Shown: positions 6,332 through 44,921 of the stretch, piece after piece
How the letters are laid out: each line of letters opens with the position of its first letter
How positions within the stretch are numbered: position 1 is the first letter of the stretch
Origin: a virus
Strand: one strand, 5' to 3'
Length of the DNA stretch: 45,560 nucleotides
Virus record (IMG/VR): IMGVR_UViG_3300044951_000866
Location: 1 to 45,560 of that record
Made by a program: the position numbers and the translations under genes
Notes under the pieces: model-generated
The model's input: only the letters and a program-made list of their open reading frames with translations
What the model was told of the DNA's origin: nothing
Databases searched by the model: none

Positions 6332-7251
6332 TACCGAATCCAGGGAGGAACAACGGTAGCAGTTAGTAGTCCGGTTTCTATTTCGTCGTCTGTCATGTCG
6401 CCAATATCTTTAGCACTAGTAGTGGAGTAGTTCCACCACTTTATACCCTTACGGGGAGTCCCGAGGTTCTTGTACAGGCGTTTGCTGGATTCAATCCCAG
6501 CCTCGTCATTGTCCATGGCTATAACAATCGTGTCTGACATGTGCAAAAGCAGGTCCATTTGGCTTTTTGAAACTTGAGCGCCAAAAGATGCAACAGCTTG
6601 GGGTTTAGAAAACACCATGGCAAAACGAATTACGTCTAATGGAGATTCAACAAGGACCGAAGTCTTGCTCCTAAAACGTTCTACACCAAATAAGGTCTTG
6701 GACTTTTCAATGCCAACAGGAAAGTTACGTACCCAACCCGGTCGTTTTTCTTGCCACCCCATGAGGCTACCCATGCTTGAGATTATAGGAATGCACCATG
6801 ACTTGTTGATTGGGTTCCACCTAACGCCGTAACGGTAGATGATGTCGGGATCAAGGTGTTTTGAAAAGCAATGCTTATCGGAGACTCTTTCAAACTTAAA
6901 AAAAGCTTCAGTATCTAGCTTCTGTGGGACTTGGTAAGTAGACGCGTCGGAGCTAGTAAGCCGCTGCATGCCAGCGTTAATTAAAAACTGTTGAGCTGAT
7001 ATGCCTGCTTCTCCCGATAATTCGGAAAGGAGCATAGAAAGAGTGCCACGTGCTCCACATGAAAAGCAAAGCCAAAGTCCGGTAGATGCGTTCATGCTCC
7101 AAGAAGGGGAGTTGTCTGCGTGGCCAGTAACCCTTTCGTGGACTGGGCACCTACCTGTTATTTCCCGATCACTAACACGGAGTACTTCTACCCCTGAGAC
7201 TTTTAGAATGTCACTAAGATCAGTCAAATGAGGGGTCAGTTGCTTCTGCAT
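6331..7251 (-). CDS. DnaG-type primase (zinc finger plus TOPRIM)
   Basis: A 306-residue primase that makes RNA primers for lagging-strand synthesis. The N-terminal CHC2-like zinc finger is C35/H38 (CPVH) with C62/C65 (CFSC). The TOPRIM core has the catalytic Glu E202 (VLVESPLD) and the DxD pair D247/D249 (AMDNDEAG). It lacks the long C-terminal helicase-binding region of bacterial DnaG. It overlaps the end of the helicase gene by about 32 bases. AGGAGG lies nine bases before the ATG at 7251 and six before an adjacent GTG at 7254; either could be the start. A TTG further upstream overlaps the Shine-Dalgarno site itself and is unlikely. Confidence 0.92.
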   Translation of the reverse strand: MQKQLTPHLTDLSDILKVSGVEVLRVSDREITGRCPVHERVTGHADNSPSWSMNASTGLWLCFSCGARGTLSMLLSELSGEAGISAQQFLINAGMQRLTSSDASTYQVPQKLDTEAFFKFERVSDKHCFSKHLDPDIIYRYGVRWNPINKSWCIPIISSMGSLMGWQEKRPGWVRNFPVGIEKSKTLFGVERFRSKTSVLVESPLDVIRFAMVFSKPQAVASFGAQVSKSQMDLLLHMSDTIVIAMDNDEAGIESSKRLYKNLGTPRKGIKWWNYSTTSAKDIGDMTDDEIETGLLTATVVPPWIR

Positions 7252-8473
7252 CACCCATAACCTCCTCAAACTCCATGGTTGTCCAATCCCATTTAACGTG
7301 TACTTCTCCAGTAGGGGCTGTACGAGCTAAGACAACTCTAATAATTGCTTGGTCATCAATGTCTGGGTTGCGCTCTACACCAAGAATCAAGTCGGCATCT
7401 TGAGCAAATGAAGAGGTGTATCCAATTGCGTCAGCAGTAACTGCACGAGTCTTGCGGTTCTGTAGCTTCCAAGACAAAACCTGAGTTGTAGCAACAACAG
7501 GAATGTCAAAACGCTGGGCCATACGCTTTAGTGCACGCGTAATATTAGTCAACGCTTGGGGGCTACCTTTTGCTTCACCCTCTTCATCATCCATCAAATA
7601 CACACCGTCAACAAATAGCACGTCTGGGGAATACTCCTGCACCTTGCTTGCTAATGCACTGACTGTAGTCAACGACGCGGTGTCTTCACTGAATACAAAA
7701 GGCTGCATGTGTTTGCGGATAGATAAAGCTTTGTGAATCTTGGTCATGTCCTTTGTATTTAGATCTCCTGACAAAATCCTGTCATACGGAACTTTGGCAA
7801 TCAAAGAGTCATAGCGAGCTTCTTGCTCTTCAATGCTCATTTCAAAAGAAACAAACAACGGGCGTTTACCATGAACGTGCGCTGAGTTGGCGAGGATCAA
7901 AGCAAATAGAGATTTACCACGTTTTGGTTCTCCAGCAAACACAATGAATTGTTGTGGGCGCAGTCCGTGAGTGATTTTGTCAAGACCATAGAACCCAGTA
8001 GGAATACCACGTAAAGCGTTTGGTTGTAAACGCATCTCTTCGTAGCGGTTAATACGGTTTTCCCAGTTTTGAATAATGTCAACATCACGTAGGCGTGCCG
8101 CTTCCACTGAAGCTTTTTGAATGCCTGAAGTAAGGGATGCTAAAGCAGCGTTTACATCGTCAGCGTTTAAGGCGTTGATTGCTGGTTGTAGTGCATCCAA
8201 CAAACAGCGTTTTCTATACGCCTCAAAGATTTCATCAAGCAGCCTCGAAAATGGCTCATCTTTTACGTCTTGGAGTGTTACCCCACCGTACTCTCGTAGT
8301 AGTACGCGTTCCGTAGGTACGGAACCGTGTGTTTGTTGGAACTCTAAAATCCAACGCCAAATGTCTGACCACTCACCCGTTAAGTGATCTGGCTTAAGTC
8401 CAGCCTTGACTGGAGCAGAGGCATCTTTTTCGTGAATTACTTTTGAGATTAGATAGAGCTCGCTGGATGCCAT
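7220..8473 (-). CDS. dnaB: DnaB-like replicative helicase
   Basis: A 417-residue hexameric helicase expected to unwind DNA at the fork. The N-terminal 130 residues are helical, as in the DnaB primase-interaction domain. The RecA-type core has GIPTGFYGLD, Walker A GEPKRGKS (181-188), SFEMS, Walker B VLFVDGVYL and the sensor-like ATTQ. The start at 8473 is supported by GGGGAAG upstream and a one-base overlap with the preceding stop (TAATG). The loader-like ATPase lies one gene upstream and the primase directly downstream, so helicase, loader and primase form one set. Confidence 0.93.
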   Translation of the reverse strand: MASSELYLISKVIHEKDASAPVKAGLKPDHLTGEWSDIWRWILEFQQTHGSVPTERVLLREYGGVTLQDVKDEPFSRLLDEIFEAYRKRCLLDALQPAINALNADDVNAALASLTSGIQKASVEAARLRDVDIIQNWENRINRYEEMRLQPNALRGIPTGFYGLDKITHGLRPQQFIVFAGEPKRGKSLFALILANSAHVHGKRPLFVSFEMSIEEQEARYDSLIAKVPYDRILSGDLNTKDMTKIHKALSIRKHMQPFVFSEDTASLTTVSALASKVQEYSPDVLFVDGVYLMDDEEGEAKGSPQALTNITRALKRMAQRFDIPVVATTQVLSWKLQNRKTRAVTADAIGYTSSFAQDADLILGVERNPDIDDQAIIRVVLARTAPTGEVHVKWDWTTMEFEEVMGDAEATDPSFD

Positions 8474-8916
8474 TAAAATCTTCCCCACTGAGTGTTCGGA
8501 CTTACGACTGTAGACCGAGGGCCAAGTATAAGTGCATCTTCTTGTTTTGCTACATAGACGGTTGTTATTGATCGGTTATACCGGAGGTCAACGCTGTAGT
8601 CCTCTACGCTTTCGTAGTATTCAACATTAGTCATAACGCCTTTGCGAACTAACCATTGGTAAATGGGTTCTACGGCATCGGGACTTAAAAAAGTTATAAC
8701 TTCAGTTGAGACATGCAACCTTTCAACTGTGTCAATTAAAGACTTTAAAGGAAGGTCATTTGGTTTCCAAAGTTTTAACGCAGATTTCCAGTCACCTGTT
8801 TTTTCGTAGTATTTTGACTTTATTAAAGAAGCGCCTGTAGGTCGGGAAACAAGTAAGTCTTCAAAAAAACAAGCTTGTCCCGAACGGACACTTTGGGAAA
8901 TGTTGCCGCCTTCCAT
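8473..8916 (-). CDS. Hypothetical protein between helicase loader and helicase
   Basis: A 147-residue protein I cannot assign. The first 50 residues include a possible zinc or basic segment (SGQACFFEDLLVSRPTGAS). The second half alternates strands and helices (VITFLSPDAVEPIYQWL, then ITTVYVAKQEDALILGPRST), suggesting a small alpha/beta domain. No catalytic motif is evident; the pattern recalls the C-terminal part of HAD-like proteins, but the DxD nucleophile motif is absent, so I do not claim that family. The start at 8916 lies one base after the upstream TAG. Its place inside the loader-helicase pair suggests a replisome accessory factor. Confidence 0.7.
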   Translation of the reverse strand: MEGGNISQSVRSGQACFFEDLLVSRPTGASLIKSKYYEKTGDWKSALKLWKPNDLPLKSLIDTVERLHVSTEVITFLSPDAVEPIYQWLVRKGVMTNVEYYESVEDYSVDLRYNRSITTVYVAKQEDALILGPRSTVVSPNTQWGRF

Positions 8917-8917
8917 G

Positions 8918-9505
8918 CTACGACACCTTTTCTTCGTGCATGTCAATGACAGCACTCTTTACACGCTCTCCGTACCTGCGAGTGAAATCAGTTGTGCCTA
9001 ACGTAGTCGTGATAATGGTTGTGCGCATGTCTTCGTAGCGGCGGCGGATAAGGCTCCCAATCTCGTGGATAGAAAAGTCTGTTTCCCTTTCTTGGCCAAC
9101 CCCGTCAAGAAGCAAGATGTCAAATACGCCTTGAATGTACTTAACCAAGTAAGGGCTTGAGTACATGGATGGAAGAACGTTCTCGCTGTCAAACTGATCT
9201 TTGAGCATCTCAAGGTAACGATCAGAAGTTACAAACCTGCCTGACAACTTGTGGGAAGAAATTAACTCACGAAGAATTGCTTGAGCAACAGTAGTTTTGC
9301 CAGTGCCTGATTTGCCGTGGAGAATCAAGCTGTCGCCTGGTTTGTAATTAGCAAGCCACTTGCTAACGCTAGAAGTAACCGAAATGTCTTCAACACTGTA
9401 AAAGCGTGGTGGAACCTTTGCGTGAAACACGCGTTCTTCAGGTGAACGATTACGCCACCATGCTGCTGACTTCCAATCAGTCGGGGTCTGAAATTCCTTT
9501 GTCAT
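8918..9505 (-). CDS. DnaC/IstB-like ATPase, probable helicase loader
   Basis: A 195-residue AAA+ ATPase with Walker A GKSGTGKT (64-71), Walker B DILLLDGVG (D134) and a TTTL sensor segment. The length and lack of a large N-terminal domain match DnaC/phage helicase loaders rather than DnaA. It should open the DnaB ring and load it onto melted origin DNA. It lies two genes downstream of the initiator and two upstream of the helicase, which parallels lambda O-P logic. GAGGA stands five bases before the ATG at 9505. Confidence 0.88.
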   Translation of the reverse strand: MTKEFQTPTDWKSAAWWRNRSPEERVFHAKVPPRFYSVEDISVTSSVSKWLANYKPGDSLILHGKSGTGKTTVAQAILRELISSHKLSGRFVTSDRYLEMLKDQFDSENVLPSMYSSPYLVKYIQGVFDILLLDGVGQERETDFSIHEIGSLIRRRYEDMRTTIITTTLGTTDFTRRYGERVKSAVIDMHEEKVS

Positions 9506-9845
9506 TAGTTTCCTCTTGGTGGTTCTCGTAGGAGTTGTTTACAATCTCCCAAAACTGCTTTTGGATCTTCTTCTTACTCTTATGAACTACTTTTTGATGG
9601 ACGTCTAACCCAGCTCGTGTTAGGAACTGGGCTTTGCAATCTACACAGGAGTGTAGGGGTTGTTCAACCTTTTTCCCTCTTGTGCAAAAAGTTGTTGGAG
9701 GAATGTCATCGTCCATGGCGTACAAAAACCATGTTTCGTATTCCTCAGCGTCATCAAAATTGGCCCTAACCCACTCAACAAAGACAAAGATGTCTTCTAC
9801 GCTGTTAAAAATGTATTCGTGGTAGGTGTCGTCGTCATCGTCCAT
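9477..9845 (-). CDS. Small protein with a classical C2H2 zinc finger
   Basis: A 122-residue protein. Residues 67-88 (CVDCKAQF...L..H....H) fit the eukaryote-style C2H2 consensus C-x2-C-x3-F-x5-L-x2-H-x4-H (C67, C70, F74, L80, H83, H88), followed by a basic run HKSKKKIQK. The N-terminal 50 residues are very acidic (MDDDDD start) and probably helical. This suggests a DNA- or protein-binding factor with an acidic partner surface. The ATG at 9845 is chosen because AAGGG lies six bases upstream; it overlaps the end of the initiator gene by 11 bases. It is co-transcribed between the initiator and the helicase loader, so a role in origin firing is possible. Confidence 0.75.
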   Translation of the reverse strand: MDDDDDTYHEYIFNSVEDIFVFVEWVRANFDDAEEYETWFLYAMDDDIPPTTFCTRGKKVEQPLHSCVDCKAQFLTRAGLDVHQKVVHKSKKKIQKQFWEIVNNSYENHQEETNDKGISDPD

Positions 9846-11076
9846 GGGTTGCCCTTCGGTAGTTGTAGACCGCTTCAACAATGGAATCCGCTGGTAGACG
9901 TAGATTGGAACTTGAAAGTTTAAGTATTTCTTCTGGTAAACCCAAGTGCGCAACTTCTTTTAAAAGCAACGCTGAGTCTTCTTGTTCTTCTCCGGATATA
10001 ACTCTTATAAGAGAGTTTAGCGCAGACAAAGAAGTATTAAATTCATCTGAGTAAAACGCACCGTTGTGGATTGTTATTAACTCAGCAACAATTTCCGGAT
10101 ACCTGTAGCAAACATCCATGCCGTGACGAATGACAACTTTTTTAAGAACTAAGTCCATTGCTGCTGGCCAGGGGATATCAAGGTCTAGGCGCTCAAAGTC
10201 ATTCATCATCAAGGACAGCACAGGGTTGTCTGAAACTACGGTTGTTTCAACCTGCTCCATCAATTTCTGTTGAATGTCTTTGGTACAAAACAACAAAACA
10301 GTGTTGTCTGCTTCTCGCCAACGCTGTACTGAAAAGAACTTTGTGACCATTTGCATGATGGTGAACTCTGTTAAGCCTGAGTCAATCAAGGTGCTAAACG
10401 TTTTTCTTAAAATCATGACATCTTTTGGACTGTGTGAGCTGGACATGATTGAGTGTTTGTTGCTAAGGAAATGGTTAACAAACTGATTTGTTTTTCTAGG
10501 TACTTTTTTCTTTGGGGGAAGTTCAAAACCACTAACTGGATCGTCTGGATCTGAACCTAAAATCATCTCGCCCTCCGTGCCGCTTGCGGCTTTCTTTACT
10601 ATCTCTTTAGTACTTCTATTTAGTATCTTTATATTGAAATTTGAAAAAGGTTCATCATGCTGGTCTTTTGTTGTTGTAGATAGGGTCACCCGTGACCCCA
10701 CCATAGGGTCTTCTGTGACCCCATATAGGGTCTCTCGTGACCCCATCATAGGGTCACCCATGACCCTATCTCCGTGTTTAACGGGCGGTGTGTAATGCAA
10801 TGTGTAAACGTTTACTAATGGTTTTTGCCTGTGGATAACTGTGATTACTTTGTGGTCTGCCAACCACTTTAGTGACCGTTTTGCGGTCTCTTTTGAGACA
10901 CCAACATACTCGGCTATCTGTATTACAGAAGCTGCAATTTCTTTGGTTCGGCGTTCCATAAGGGCGACCAACCCAAGCAAGACTTGTAAATCTCGGGGCT
11001 GTCCGTAATCCCTAATTTCCCCAACAGCCCAAACTGGGACTGCTAAGAAAGGGCCGTCAAAAACGTTGGTGGTCAT
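9835..11076 (-). CDS. Replication initiator with winged helix; carries origin iterons inside the gene
   Basis: A 413-residue protein opening the leftward replication operon. Residues about 28-95 form a winged helix-turn-helix (LLGLVALMERRTKEIAASVI, then VGVSKETAKRSLKWLADHKV and a VIHRQKP wing). Residues 102-132 are encoded by four palindromic iterons, and about 142-162 by an AT-rich tract. The remainder is a helical C-terminal region that may contact the DnaC-like loader. This is the architecture of lambda O-type initiators, where the origin lies in the middle of the gene. The ATG at 11076 has only a weak Shine-Dalgarno site and sits inside a 16-bp palindrome; a TTG at 11115 is an alternative start. 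Confidence 0.75.
   Translation of the reverse strand: MTTNVFDGPFLAVPVWAVGEIRDYGQPRDLQVLLGLVALMERRTKEIAASVIQIAEYVGVSKETAKRSLKWLADHKVITVIHRQKPLVNVYTLHYTPPVKHGDRVMGDPMMGSRETLYGVTEDPMVGSRVTLSTTTKDQHDEPFSNFNIKILNRSTKEIVKKAASGTEGEMILGSDPDDPVSGFELPPKKKVPRKTNQFVNHFLSNKHSIMSSSHSPKDVMILRKTFSTLIDSGLTEFTIMQMVTKFFSVQRWREADNTVLLFCTKDIQQKLMEQVETTVVSDNPVLSLMMNDFERLDLDIPWPAAMDLVLKKVVIRHGMDVCYRYPEIVAELITIHNGAFYSDEFNTSLSALNSLIRVISGEEQEDSALLLKEVAHLGLPEEILKLSSSNLRLPADSIVEAVYNYRRATHGR
10591..10650. other. AT-rich tract beside the iterons, candidate DNA unwinding element
   Basis: Only 13 of these 60 bases are G or C, well below the surrounding gene. Within it are two tandem 13-mers, TTTAGTACTTCTA (10606-10618) and TTTAGTATCTTTA (10619-10631), preceded by the related TTTACTATCTC (10595-10605). 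Tandem 13-mers beside initiator sites are the classic form of a DNA unwinding element. The tract lies downstream of the iterons in the direction of the gene, as in the lambda origin. Confidence 0.65.
10681..10768. repeat. Four palindromic iterons (probable replication origin)
   Basis: Four units begin with TAGGGTC at 10681, 10704, 10726 and 10749 and contain TGACCCCA or TGACCCTA at the same offset. The units are spaced 23, 22 and 23 bp apart, about two helical turns. Each is a dyad; the rightmost (10749-10768) is perfect, TAGGGTCA-CCCA-TGACCCTA. The period is not a multiple of three although the repeats lie in a coding region, so selection acts on DNA rather than protein. They are the likely binding sites of the initiator encoded by the same gene. 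Confidence 0.85.
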
Positions 11077-11087
11077 GGGTCCATGAC
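11072..11087. promoter_or_regulatory. 16-bp palindrome over the initiator start codon
   Basis: GTCATGGGTCCATGAC is a perfect palindrome of 7-bp arms around a 2-bp centre, and the initiator ATG (11074-11076 on the minus strand) lies inside it. It shares GGGTC and CATGAC elements with the iterons but with a shorter centre. It could be an operator for autoregulation by the initiator, or an mRNA hairpin that hides the start codon. Confidence 0.55.
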
Positions 11088-11123
11088 TGTACACGAGATC
11101 TTGTGGCTTTTGCAACAGCCGGG

Positions 11124-11159: not shown

Positions 11160-11245
11160 GCCAGGTTAGTTGGTGGTTCTTCAGCCTGGCGTTTTTACAA
11201 AACGCTGGGGTGTGTGGGGTATACTTCACATACCCCAGTATTTTT
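11160..11245 (+). promoter_or_regulatory. Structured leader with three inverted repeats ahead of the Dps-like gene
   Basis: Three inverted repeats follow one another. GCCAGG/CCTGGC (11160-11165 and 11185-11190) is followed by GTTTTT. GCGTTTT/AAAACGC (11189-11195 and 11199-11205) has a 3-base loop. TGGGGTAT/ATACCCCA (11215-11222 and 11230-11237) is followed by GTATTTTTG. CTGGGGT at 11205-11211 can also pair with ACCCCAG at 11232-11238, giving a competing stem. The last stem ends just before the Shine-Dalgarno site of the next gene, so the leader may act as an attenuator. Confidence 0.5.
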
Positions 11246-11257
11246 GTAGGAGACAAA

Positions 11258-11692
11258 ATGGAAGCCCTTGTTAAAGCTCTCAAAGTGCTTGTTTCAGATG
11301 TAGTCACTTTTTACTTTATGGCCCATGGATACCATTGGAATGTAGAAGGTTCTGATTTTAGCCAATATCACGCTTTGTTTTCAGAAATCTACGAAGATGC
11401 CTATGGGTCAATTGACCTCATTGCAGAAAACATCCGTAAACTTGACGATTACGCTCCATTTAGCCTGCAAAAGTTCTTAGATCTTCGCACCCTTGATTTT
11501 AAAGATGTACAACCTAATCCAAAAGCAATGGCCAAGTCCCTGTTGACGGCAAATGAAGCCCTTCTTAAATCTCTTAAAAAAGCATTTGATGAGGCTCAAA
11601 AGAAAGACGAACAAGGAATTATGAATTTCCTTGCTGATCGCATTGACAACCACAATAAATGGTCCTGGCAACTTCGGGCCTCAACCAAATAA
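11258..11692 (+). CDS. Dps/ferritin-like protein
   Basis: A 144-residue protein of the Dps branch of ferritins, which form dodecamers that oxidise and store iron and protect DNA. The motif YHWNVEG with H26, then H38, D53 and E57, reproduces the spacing of E. coli Dps H51, H63, D78 and E82. The position equal to D67 is S42, so one ferroxidase ligand appears changed. There is no lysine-rich N-terminal tail, which in E. coli Dps is needed for DNA binding; the next genes encode lysine-rich peptides instead. AGGAG precedes the ATG by seven bases. It is the first gene of the only plus-strand operon. Confidence 0.85.
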   Translation: MEALVKALKVLVSDVVTFYFMAHGYHWNVEGSDFSQYHALFSEIYEDAYGSIDLIAENIRKLDDYAPFSLQKFLDLRTLDFKDVQPNPKAMAKSLLTANEALLKSLKKAFDEAQKKDEQGIMNFLADRIDNHNKWSWQLRASTK

Positions 11693-43260: not shown

Positions 43261-44790
43261 TTAAGAATTTTCCAATAGTGATAGTCTTCGTGAAAATTCT
43301 TCCCCCTGAAGAACTAAAAGTTTAACTGCATCAAGCAATTGTGCCGTAATGATACCCATGTCAGTACCATTTGGTTCTCCTTCTGAGTTAAACGTAGACG
43401 CCTTTGGAAAAACCTGTGCAACCGTTTCGGCGATAAAACCCTCTCTATCAAAGTGATTTGACTGAATGGGTTCCGAACGGTGTTCTTGAGATAATTCAGA
43501 AGTCGGCACGTAAGTCCATTCATCATCAACTTTAATTGGCTCACCATATTTGTCATTAAATTTAACTACCGGAATTGAGAGTGCAGCCAGAACGTCATTT
43601 AAAATTTCAGTGTCATTTTTTATTCTAACATCGTCCTTCCATTCAATTGAACAACGAGTTATAAACGATGAGGCCCCTAACCAGGCATAACCAGTTCCAG
43701 GGTTATTGCCACAGTCAAGCCCTTCTCCGTGACCGTTCCAGCATCGTAAGACCGGCGCAATACCATGTAAAATTGGCCAAAAAGACAATCCCGCAATTGT
43801 TCCGGTTGATATAATTTGCAATCCTTGAGCGCCGTGTTGCGACGAAGTACTACTAGTATTTACTTGGACGTATGATGCAGAAACAGTTCCTCCGCTCTGG
43901 TTGGTTGCAGTAGTGGCAGAATCAGCAAAGCCAGCGTGAGTATCAGCATGCGCAGTGTCGTTGAGGTAGCCATACAGTCTCCAACGAGAACCAGTCCAGT
44001 ATGTTTGAATATTGTAAGCGTCGTCAGAATCACGGCGGTACAACCTATATGCTCCAGGCCTATTAGCACTAGTCCACATACCTGTCTGGCCAGTGAGCAA
44101 ACTAGATGGTATAGCACCAGCAGACAGGGTACCAACAGTGGTAATGCTAGACAAGTTTCCTGTAGTAATCATTGTCCCTGTTACATTGGGCAACGTATAA
44201 GTTCGGCTAGCACTCAATGTGGCAGGCGTAAATATGGCACGATAAGACCCAGTACCACCAATGCGAGGCGCAAGAATAATTCCATCTTCTTGTGATGAGT
44301 TAAAGAATGTTCCTTGGCCGCCAACAACAAAGTTGCCACCTAAAATTTGTACGTTTCCGCTAACTTCAAGTTTAGTAGAAGGACTACTAACACCAATACC
44401 AACATTTCCTGAAGCGTCAATAACAAAAGGCGAAGTGTCTGTACTAGCAGAGTCCTCAACAAGAAACGAGTTGCCACTGCCAGTATTAGTAATACGCATA
44501 GCAGTACCACTAGTTGCTGTAACGGTTGCTGTTCCAGTTACGGTAAGTCCTGTTAGGGTACCAACACTAGTTAAAGACGACCCAGTAACATTGGAAGCAA
44601 GTGTTGTTCCAGTAATGTCAGAAGCATCAGTTGCATAAAGTAAAGATGTCCATGCTGTAGAACCATTACCAATTTTTAATTTTCCTGTATCGGTCTCAAA
44701 CCCCTGCTCACCAGCGGCAAGAGTCGGGTTAGTTGAGGTCCAGTTAGCGGCGGTATCACGCCGTAATTGAATGAGTGCGTTACGAGCCAT
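43261..44790 (-). CDS. Tail fibre with C-terminal S74-type chaperone domain
   Basis: A 509-residue fibre. The N-terminus LIQLRRDTAANWTSTNPTLA and GEQGFETDTGKLKIG is the same adaptor type as in the fibre at 41202-42020. The middle is a Thr/Ser/Gly-rich shaft with LEVSGNVQILGG and TLSASRTYTLPNVTGT units. Residues about 382-509 form a peptidase S74 intramolecular chaperone-like domain (KDDVRIKNDTEILNDV, then GFIAETVAQVFPKA and a helical end). D386 replaces the serine that performs self-cleavage, so the domain may stay attached. The start at 44790 overlaps the upstream stop (TAATG). Confidence 0.85.
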   Translation of the reverse strand: MARNALIQLRRDTAANWTSTNPTLAAGEQGFETDTGKLKIGNGSTAWTSLLYATDASDITGTTLASNVTGSSLTSVGTLTGLTVTGTATVTATSGTAMRITNTGSGNSFLVEDSASTDTSPFVIDASGNVGIGVSSPSTKLEVSGNVQILGGNFVVGGQGTFFNSSQEDGIILAPRIGGTGSYRAIFTPATLSASRTYTLPNVTGTMITTGNLSSITTVGTLSAGAIPSSLLTGQTGMWTSANRPGAYRLYRRDSDDAYNIQTYWTGSRWRLYGYLNDTAHADTHAGFADSATTATNQSGGTVSASYVQVNTSSTSSQHGAQGLQIISTGTIAGLSFWPILHGIAPVLRCWNGHGEGLDCGNNPGTGYAWLGASSFITRCSIEWKDDVRIKNDTEILNDVLAALSIPVVKFNDKYGEPIKVDDEWTYVPTSELSQEHRSEPIQSNHFDREGFIAETVAQVFPKASTFNSEGEPNGTDMGIITAQLLDAVKLLVLQGEEFSRRLSLLENS

Positions 44791-44921
44791 TATTTGGCCT
44801 GCCATTCTTCGGGGGTGTTACCTTCAGCGAGCCATCCACCAGCAAGAAGTTCAGCGTATTCTTCGTCGGTCATGGGTCGAACGAGGTCGTCGATTTGGAT
44901 GTTTGGTCGTTCATTTTCCAT
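44790..44921 (-). CDS. 43-residue small protein between fibre genes
   Basis: A small gene with the ATG at 44921 overlapping the previous stop (TAATG) and its own stop overlapping the next ATG. The sequence includes LVRPMTDEEYAELLAGGWLA and ends EEWQAK. The segment DEEYAELLAGGW looks like a helix with exposed acidic face; proteins like this follow fibre genes in other phages and might be fibre-assembly factors, but there is no direct evidence. Frame, overlaps and coding-like sequence make it real. Confidence 0.72.
   Translation of the reverse strand: MENERPNIQIDDLVRPMTDEEYAELLAGGWLAEGNTPEEWQAK

Follow-up and report, generated by a model that had tools for sequence, protein, structure and literature searches.

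The 45,560-base virus sequence IMGVR_UViG_3300044951_000866, called the window below, very probably carries a phage theta-type replication origin; judging from sequence comparisons, this origin lies within the linker-coding part of the replication initiator gene. This is probably the only origin of these phages, which form an uncultured group whose replication is unstudied. The phage itself is presumably a myovirus, because a tail sheath and a Baseplate-J protein are encoded in the window.

The initiator is encoded in an open reading frame at 9835-11115 on the minus strand, with PHROG 270 among its replication-initiation matches. Comparison with relatives places the likely start codon at the ATG at 11074-11076, giving a protein of 413 residues (9838-11076, minus strand), and its function was assigned from PHROG replication-initiation families, an AlphaFold model and fold matches of the wHTH domain, among them numerous wHTH proteins as well as O-like models from viruses. 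The AlphaFold model contains an ordered wHTH domain (residues 9-96), a disordered linker (101-191) and an ordered, all-helical C-terminal domain (194-413). The disordered stretch coincides with the origin-coding part of the gene, and among relatives the linker peptide shows little conservation. Since the iterons described below encode this disordered linker, they would be free to sit inside the gene. The C-terminal part (243 residues from 9838-10566, minus strand) is confidently folded, and searches of Pfam and PDB with Foldseek and HMMs returned no relative of this domain; it is therefore the gene neighbourhood only that ties the domain to the helicase loader.

The neighbouring genes are those of a replication module. 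Downstream of the initiator gene and on the same strand are genes for a DnaC-like AAA+ helicase loader (8918-9505; phrog_50, E 3e-24) and a DnaB-like replicative helicase (7220-8488; PF03796, E 1e-36; phrog_19, E 6e-65), both of which are probable partners of the initiator, together with a primase, a SNF2 helicase, an SSB-like protein and a family A DNA polymerase (PolA). The preliminary description of this DNA had credited the phage with its own loader, DnaB, primase and polymerase, and all four were recognised here.

Four iterons, which are probable sites of initiator dimers, are located at 10683-10766, about 310-390 bp inside the initiator gene and after the wHTH-coding part; they were characterized by a repeat scan, a synonymous null and comparison with relatives. 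The repeat ATAGGGTCnnnnnTGACCCYAT occurs four times at 10680-10770 with start-to-start distances of 23, 22 and 23, and the cores (10751-10766, 10728-10743, 10706-10721 and 10683-10698) are 16-bp near-palindromes with the consensus GGGTCA-N4-TGACCC. The four dyad iterons, their spacing and their location within a winged-helix gene are all as had been described from the sequence. For the synonymous null, codons were redrawn from each gene's own usage in 2000 draws; in the window's gene, four exact palindromes are present against 0.06 expected, and four were reached in 0 of 2000 draws.

Relatives were collected in two ways: 64 related viral contigs were obtained with the DnaB protein as a query, and a scan for tandem pairs of the palindrome yielded 63 stretches, of which 45 contain an initiator relative as well. 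After removal of duplicates and grouping of initiators at 85% identity, 18 clusters were obtained, the relatives having about 25-99% amino acid identity to the window's protein. The order of wHTH, iterons and AT tract recurs across these 18 clusters, and nearly all of them have three or four iterons behind the wHTH, at about codon 105-145, with spacings of 22, 23, 33-34, 45 or 57 bp; their frames are mixed, two reading frames being used. Palindromes in an open reading frame right after a wHTH were also found by eye in at least eight stretches that have no detectable homology to the initiator.

The iterons are conserved beyond what coding needs. In the clusters, 52 palindromes with up to one mismatch and 43 exact palindromes were observed, while the synonymous null gave 10.6 and 1.3 (draw maxima, 20 and 6), respectively. 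Between related gene pairs, none of 116 third codon positions at shared half-sites was changed against 1234 of 3651 (34%) elsewhere, in a test that is somewhat biased by its need for near-matches in both genes; iteron bases are thus frozen at synonymous sites, which was a test put forward in the preliminary description. In ten contigs of 58-94 kb, some of which may be incomplete, each contig has three or four exact copies of the palindrome, all of them within the initiator gene. When bacterial genomes were scanned for paired iterons, no more than seven stretches came up, most of them unrelated. An Amphibacillus cookii contig (L158) encodes what appears by eye to be a RepA_N-like plasmid initiator, with three intragenic repeats of the GGGTCA-N4-TGACCC type spaced 24, which show in the protein as EGSNMTPH repeats.

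The wHTH domain and the iterons change together. Where the recognition helix (S-x-x-T-x-K-R) has K, the half-site is GGGTCA, except that L120 and L127 mix GGGTCA and AGGTCA; Q occurs in a single cluster, together with AGGTCA, and I likewise in a single cluster, together with GTGTCA. The GTGTCA-type palindrome is confined to the initiator gene in the phage with the I variant, and the contig with the Q variant has two exact copies 45 bp apart and no further match at up to one mismatch. L108 and L109 have the same C-terminal domain with a different wHTH, and their iterons are three AACGGGCGGACAT-like sequences at 22-23 bp, found only in that gene. The two single-residue cases, although few, and the whole-domain swap fit what would be predicted for a DNA-binding partner. 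The relatives thus offer a natural data set of dozens of intragenic origins with joint change of initiator and iterons, which is enough to begin a recognition code (helix K, Q and I for GGGTCA, AGGTCA and GTGTCA, respectively) and allows base-by-base separation of coding constraint from origin constraint.

The AT-rich tract at 10591-10648 (58 bp) adjoins the iterons and is a probable DNA-unwinding element. Recounting bore out both features previously noted in it, namely 13 G/C in 60 bases, which is true of stretches starting at 10589-10593, and tandem 13-mers, which are adjacent at 10606-10618 and 10619-10631 and alike at 10 of 13 bases. In 16 of the 18 clusters, the 45-base stretch of the gene with the highest A+T comes immediately after the iterons, and A+T in the tract exceeds the synonymous null with a combined Z of 12.6 across 18 related clusters. 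Since the clusters share ancestry, this and the other combined Z values overstate independence and are upper limits. At matched A+T, TAG is about twofold enriched in the tracts of the clusters (55 against 26 expected), and AGTA and AGTAYTA are also enriched. Runs of TAG/TAA triplets are visible in the AT tracts of the 18 clusters, e.g., AAATAGTAATAATAG in L048, and are reminiscent of DnaA-trios.

A short GC hairpin, GCCG-CAAG-CGGC (10579-10590, minus strand), abuts the AT tract. Folded as a single sequence, the window's hairpin is not significant (z -0.9) with a stem of only 4 bp, so that the claim of a hairpin derives from the relatives only. There, a stem-loop past the tract was found in nearly every cluster (GACCG-CGAG-CGGTC, GTCG-CAAG-CGAC, GCTCCC-TGC-GGGAGC and others) with compensatory changes, including a 14-bp perfect stem with compensated double changes in the group of L120, L127 and L005, and the combined Z against the synonymous null is 8.6 (related clusters; upper limit). 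On the plus strand, the hairpin and the T-rich side of the tract (10575-10589) resemble an intrinsic terminator for antisense transcription.

A probable promoter is located at 11086-11115 on the minus strand, consisting of TTGCAA (-35), 18 nt and an extended -10 box, TG-TACAGT. Its -10 box ends 9 nt before the ATG, from which a near-leaderless mRNA is predicted. In about 13 of the 18 clusters, inspection by eye showed a TTGC/TTGT box and a TAnnnT-like box whose distance from the ATG is constant; a generic sigma-70 scan did not pick this conserved promoter. As a rule, no Shine-Dalgarno sequence precedes the first ATG (mean, -1.8 kcal/mol). At the other end of the origin, past the hairpin, there are a Shine-Dalgarno-like GGAGG (10572-10576, minus strand) and a conserved in-frame ATG (10564-10566, minus strand; Met171 of 413), from which a 243-residue C-terminal product ending at 9838 could be started. 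The hairpin, the leaderless-type promoter, and the Shine-Dalgarno sequence with its in-frame ATG/GTG had been overlooked in the preliminary description, which delimited the element to 10591-10770; the element is larger and reaches the ATG at 10564 on one side and the promoter at about 11086-11115 on the other.

We lean slightly towards the internal start being real and producing the C-terminal domain alone, in which case the initiator gene would have a second product that had escaped notice. The internal start codon is kept in 18 of the 18 clusters, as ATG or, in one lineage (L108), as GTG, and the mean Shine-Dalgarno energy before it is -7.7 kcal/mol against -1.5 kcal/mol at other in-frame ATGs. 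It may also be, with a probability that we put a little under even, that the origin is correct and no second protein exists, GGAGG and ATG past the hairpin being due to chance or to a role in the DNA element. Consistent with this, the Shine-Dalgarno sequence is weak in several clusters (L036, L087, L008, L022 and L048), its excess over the synonymous null is moderate (combined Z of only 3.4; related clusters, upper limit), and Met171 belongs to a conserved MILGADPD motif. The energy difference argues for a real start, and so does the fact that the start shifts by one residue in L120, L127 and L005 and becomes GTG in L108, yet a start codon and the upstream purine-rich sequence are kept. A truncated initiator from an internal start has been shown experimentally for RepR/RepR' of pIGRK (PMC6854812); pIGRK is a plasmid of another family, and the internal start is experimental there and predicted here.

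Other functions of the palindromes have also been considered. It is improbable that they are a transcriptional operator or road-block, with the wHTH protein repressing its own operon and no origin present: the wHTH resembles regulators of the Crp/MarR/ArsR type and palindromic sites fit a repressor dimer, but the sites lie well within the gene and away from the conserved promoter, the AT tract, TAG repeats and hairpin accompany them in a fixed order in relatives, and the operon codes for a loader, helicase, primase and polymerase. Even more doubtful is a partition (centromere-like) site of a TubR-like wHTH protein; iteron arrays are typical of centromeres and TubR is among the weak fold matches, but the proteins scanned included none recognisable as ParA/TubZ-like, the surrounding genes serve replication, and the combination of AT tract and hairpin is characteristic of origins. 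That the repeats in the DNA simply follow from a repeated peptide in a low-complexity linker is scarcely credible and has been largely refuted by the synonymous null and the absence of third-base changes (0/116), the linker peptide being poorly conserved and predicted to be disordered. The preliminary description had denied that the repeats are protein repeats, and this holds because neighbouring iterons occupy different frames; it does not extend to every second copy, since these are 45 nt (15 codons) apart, share a frame and give a weak 15-residue echo in the protein (DPMMGSR.../DPMVGSR...).

The origin most likely works like those of lambda, SPP1 and P22, which provide precedents. The lambda origin is within gene O, where inverted-repeat iterons are bound by O dimers and an adjacent 40-bp AT region opens (PMC5043065). 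As in lambda, the origin in the window lies in the middle of the initiator gene past the wHTH, with four dyad iterons at a spacing of about 20-24 bp, an adjoining AT tract and a hairpin right after it; the hairpin of lambda is an imperfect one of 11 pairs, and hairpins are likewise present in P22 and a Pseudomonas phage. The lambda-like order proposed earlier for a complete intragenic origin, with tandem dyad iterons after the DNA-binding domain and the AT tract adjoining, is therefore retained. No similarity to O had been noticed and an independent origin had been considered; however, 70 columns of the wHTH match the lambda-O-family profile (hhalign 75%, E 2.4e-5) and O-like PHROGs are matched in many relatives of the initiator, so that a diverged relative of O is more likely than an independent invention. 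By tblastn against named phages, the initiator gave no O match and a single weak wHTH match.

On these comparisons, the initiator does not belong fully to the lambda O protein family: there is a remote relationship in the wHTH and none in the C-terminal domain, the profile comparison aligning the wHTH only, and the loader also differs. Lambda uses P and the host DnaB, while this phage has a DnaC-like AAA+ loader (phrog_50) and its own DnaB; the lambda iterons are TCCCTC..GAGGGA instead of GGGTCA-N4-TGACCC; and no Shine-Dalgarno sequence with an internal start past the origin was seen in lambda. In SPP1, oriL lies in gene 38, before the genes of the loader gp39 and the DnaB-type helicase gp40 (PMC6316719). 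By this published description, SPP1 resembles the window in that its initiator gene contains repeats and an AT-rich element and precedes the genes for a loader and a phage helicase of DnaB type; SPP1 has a second origin, oriR, whereas here the palindrome is found at one place only. P22 gene 18 likewise encodes an O-like initiator with an internal origin and adjoins a phage DnaB gene, but no loader-type AAA+ gene is present in the P22 stretch examined, and its iterons and C-terminal part are different. A lambda-like origin beside the phage's own loader and DnaB, which had appeared surprising, is thus not so, since SPP1 (loader and DnaB) and P22 (DnaB) already combine these.

In the mechanism that we propose, a dimer of the wHTH domain would bind each palindromic iteron, and the joint occupation of three or four phased iterons by dimers would strain the DNA and open the AT-rich, TAG-rich tract, whose far edge the hairpin would mark. 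The helical C-terminal domain would then recruit the DnaC-like loader and the phage's DnaB, and the helicase would be loaded. Less certainly, the full-length protein would be made from the near-leaderless mRNA and the C-terminal domain alone from the internal ribosome-binding site past the origin. A further and rather speculative idea is that the origin is the boundary of two proteins, a full-length one from a leaderless mRNA and a separate helicase-recruiting C-terminal domain; coupling might then exist between the melting of these 200 bp and their transcription and translation, the isoform ratio might tune initiation, and a dedicated protein might read the TAG-rich tract as a single strand, in the way that DnaA-trios are read. 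A check of GC skew, which the preliminary description had advised, found no extremum at the locus in four long contigs; this gives the origin no support and is weak counter-evidence.

Several other features were observed in the window. A Ferritin/Dps-like gene (PF00210, E 9e-17), an unusual cargo for a phage, is located at 11210-11692 on the plus strand, divergent from the initiator gene. The gap between these two genes has a strong inverted repeat with a T run at 11204-11239, forming a terminator-like hairpin of 16 pairs. At 43261-44805 on the minus strand, a tail protein with a Major tropism determinant N-terminal domain (PF18454) is encoded.
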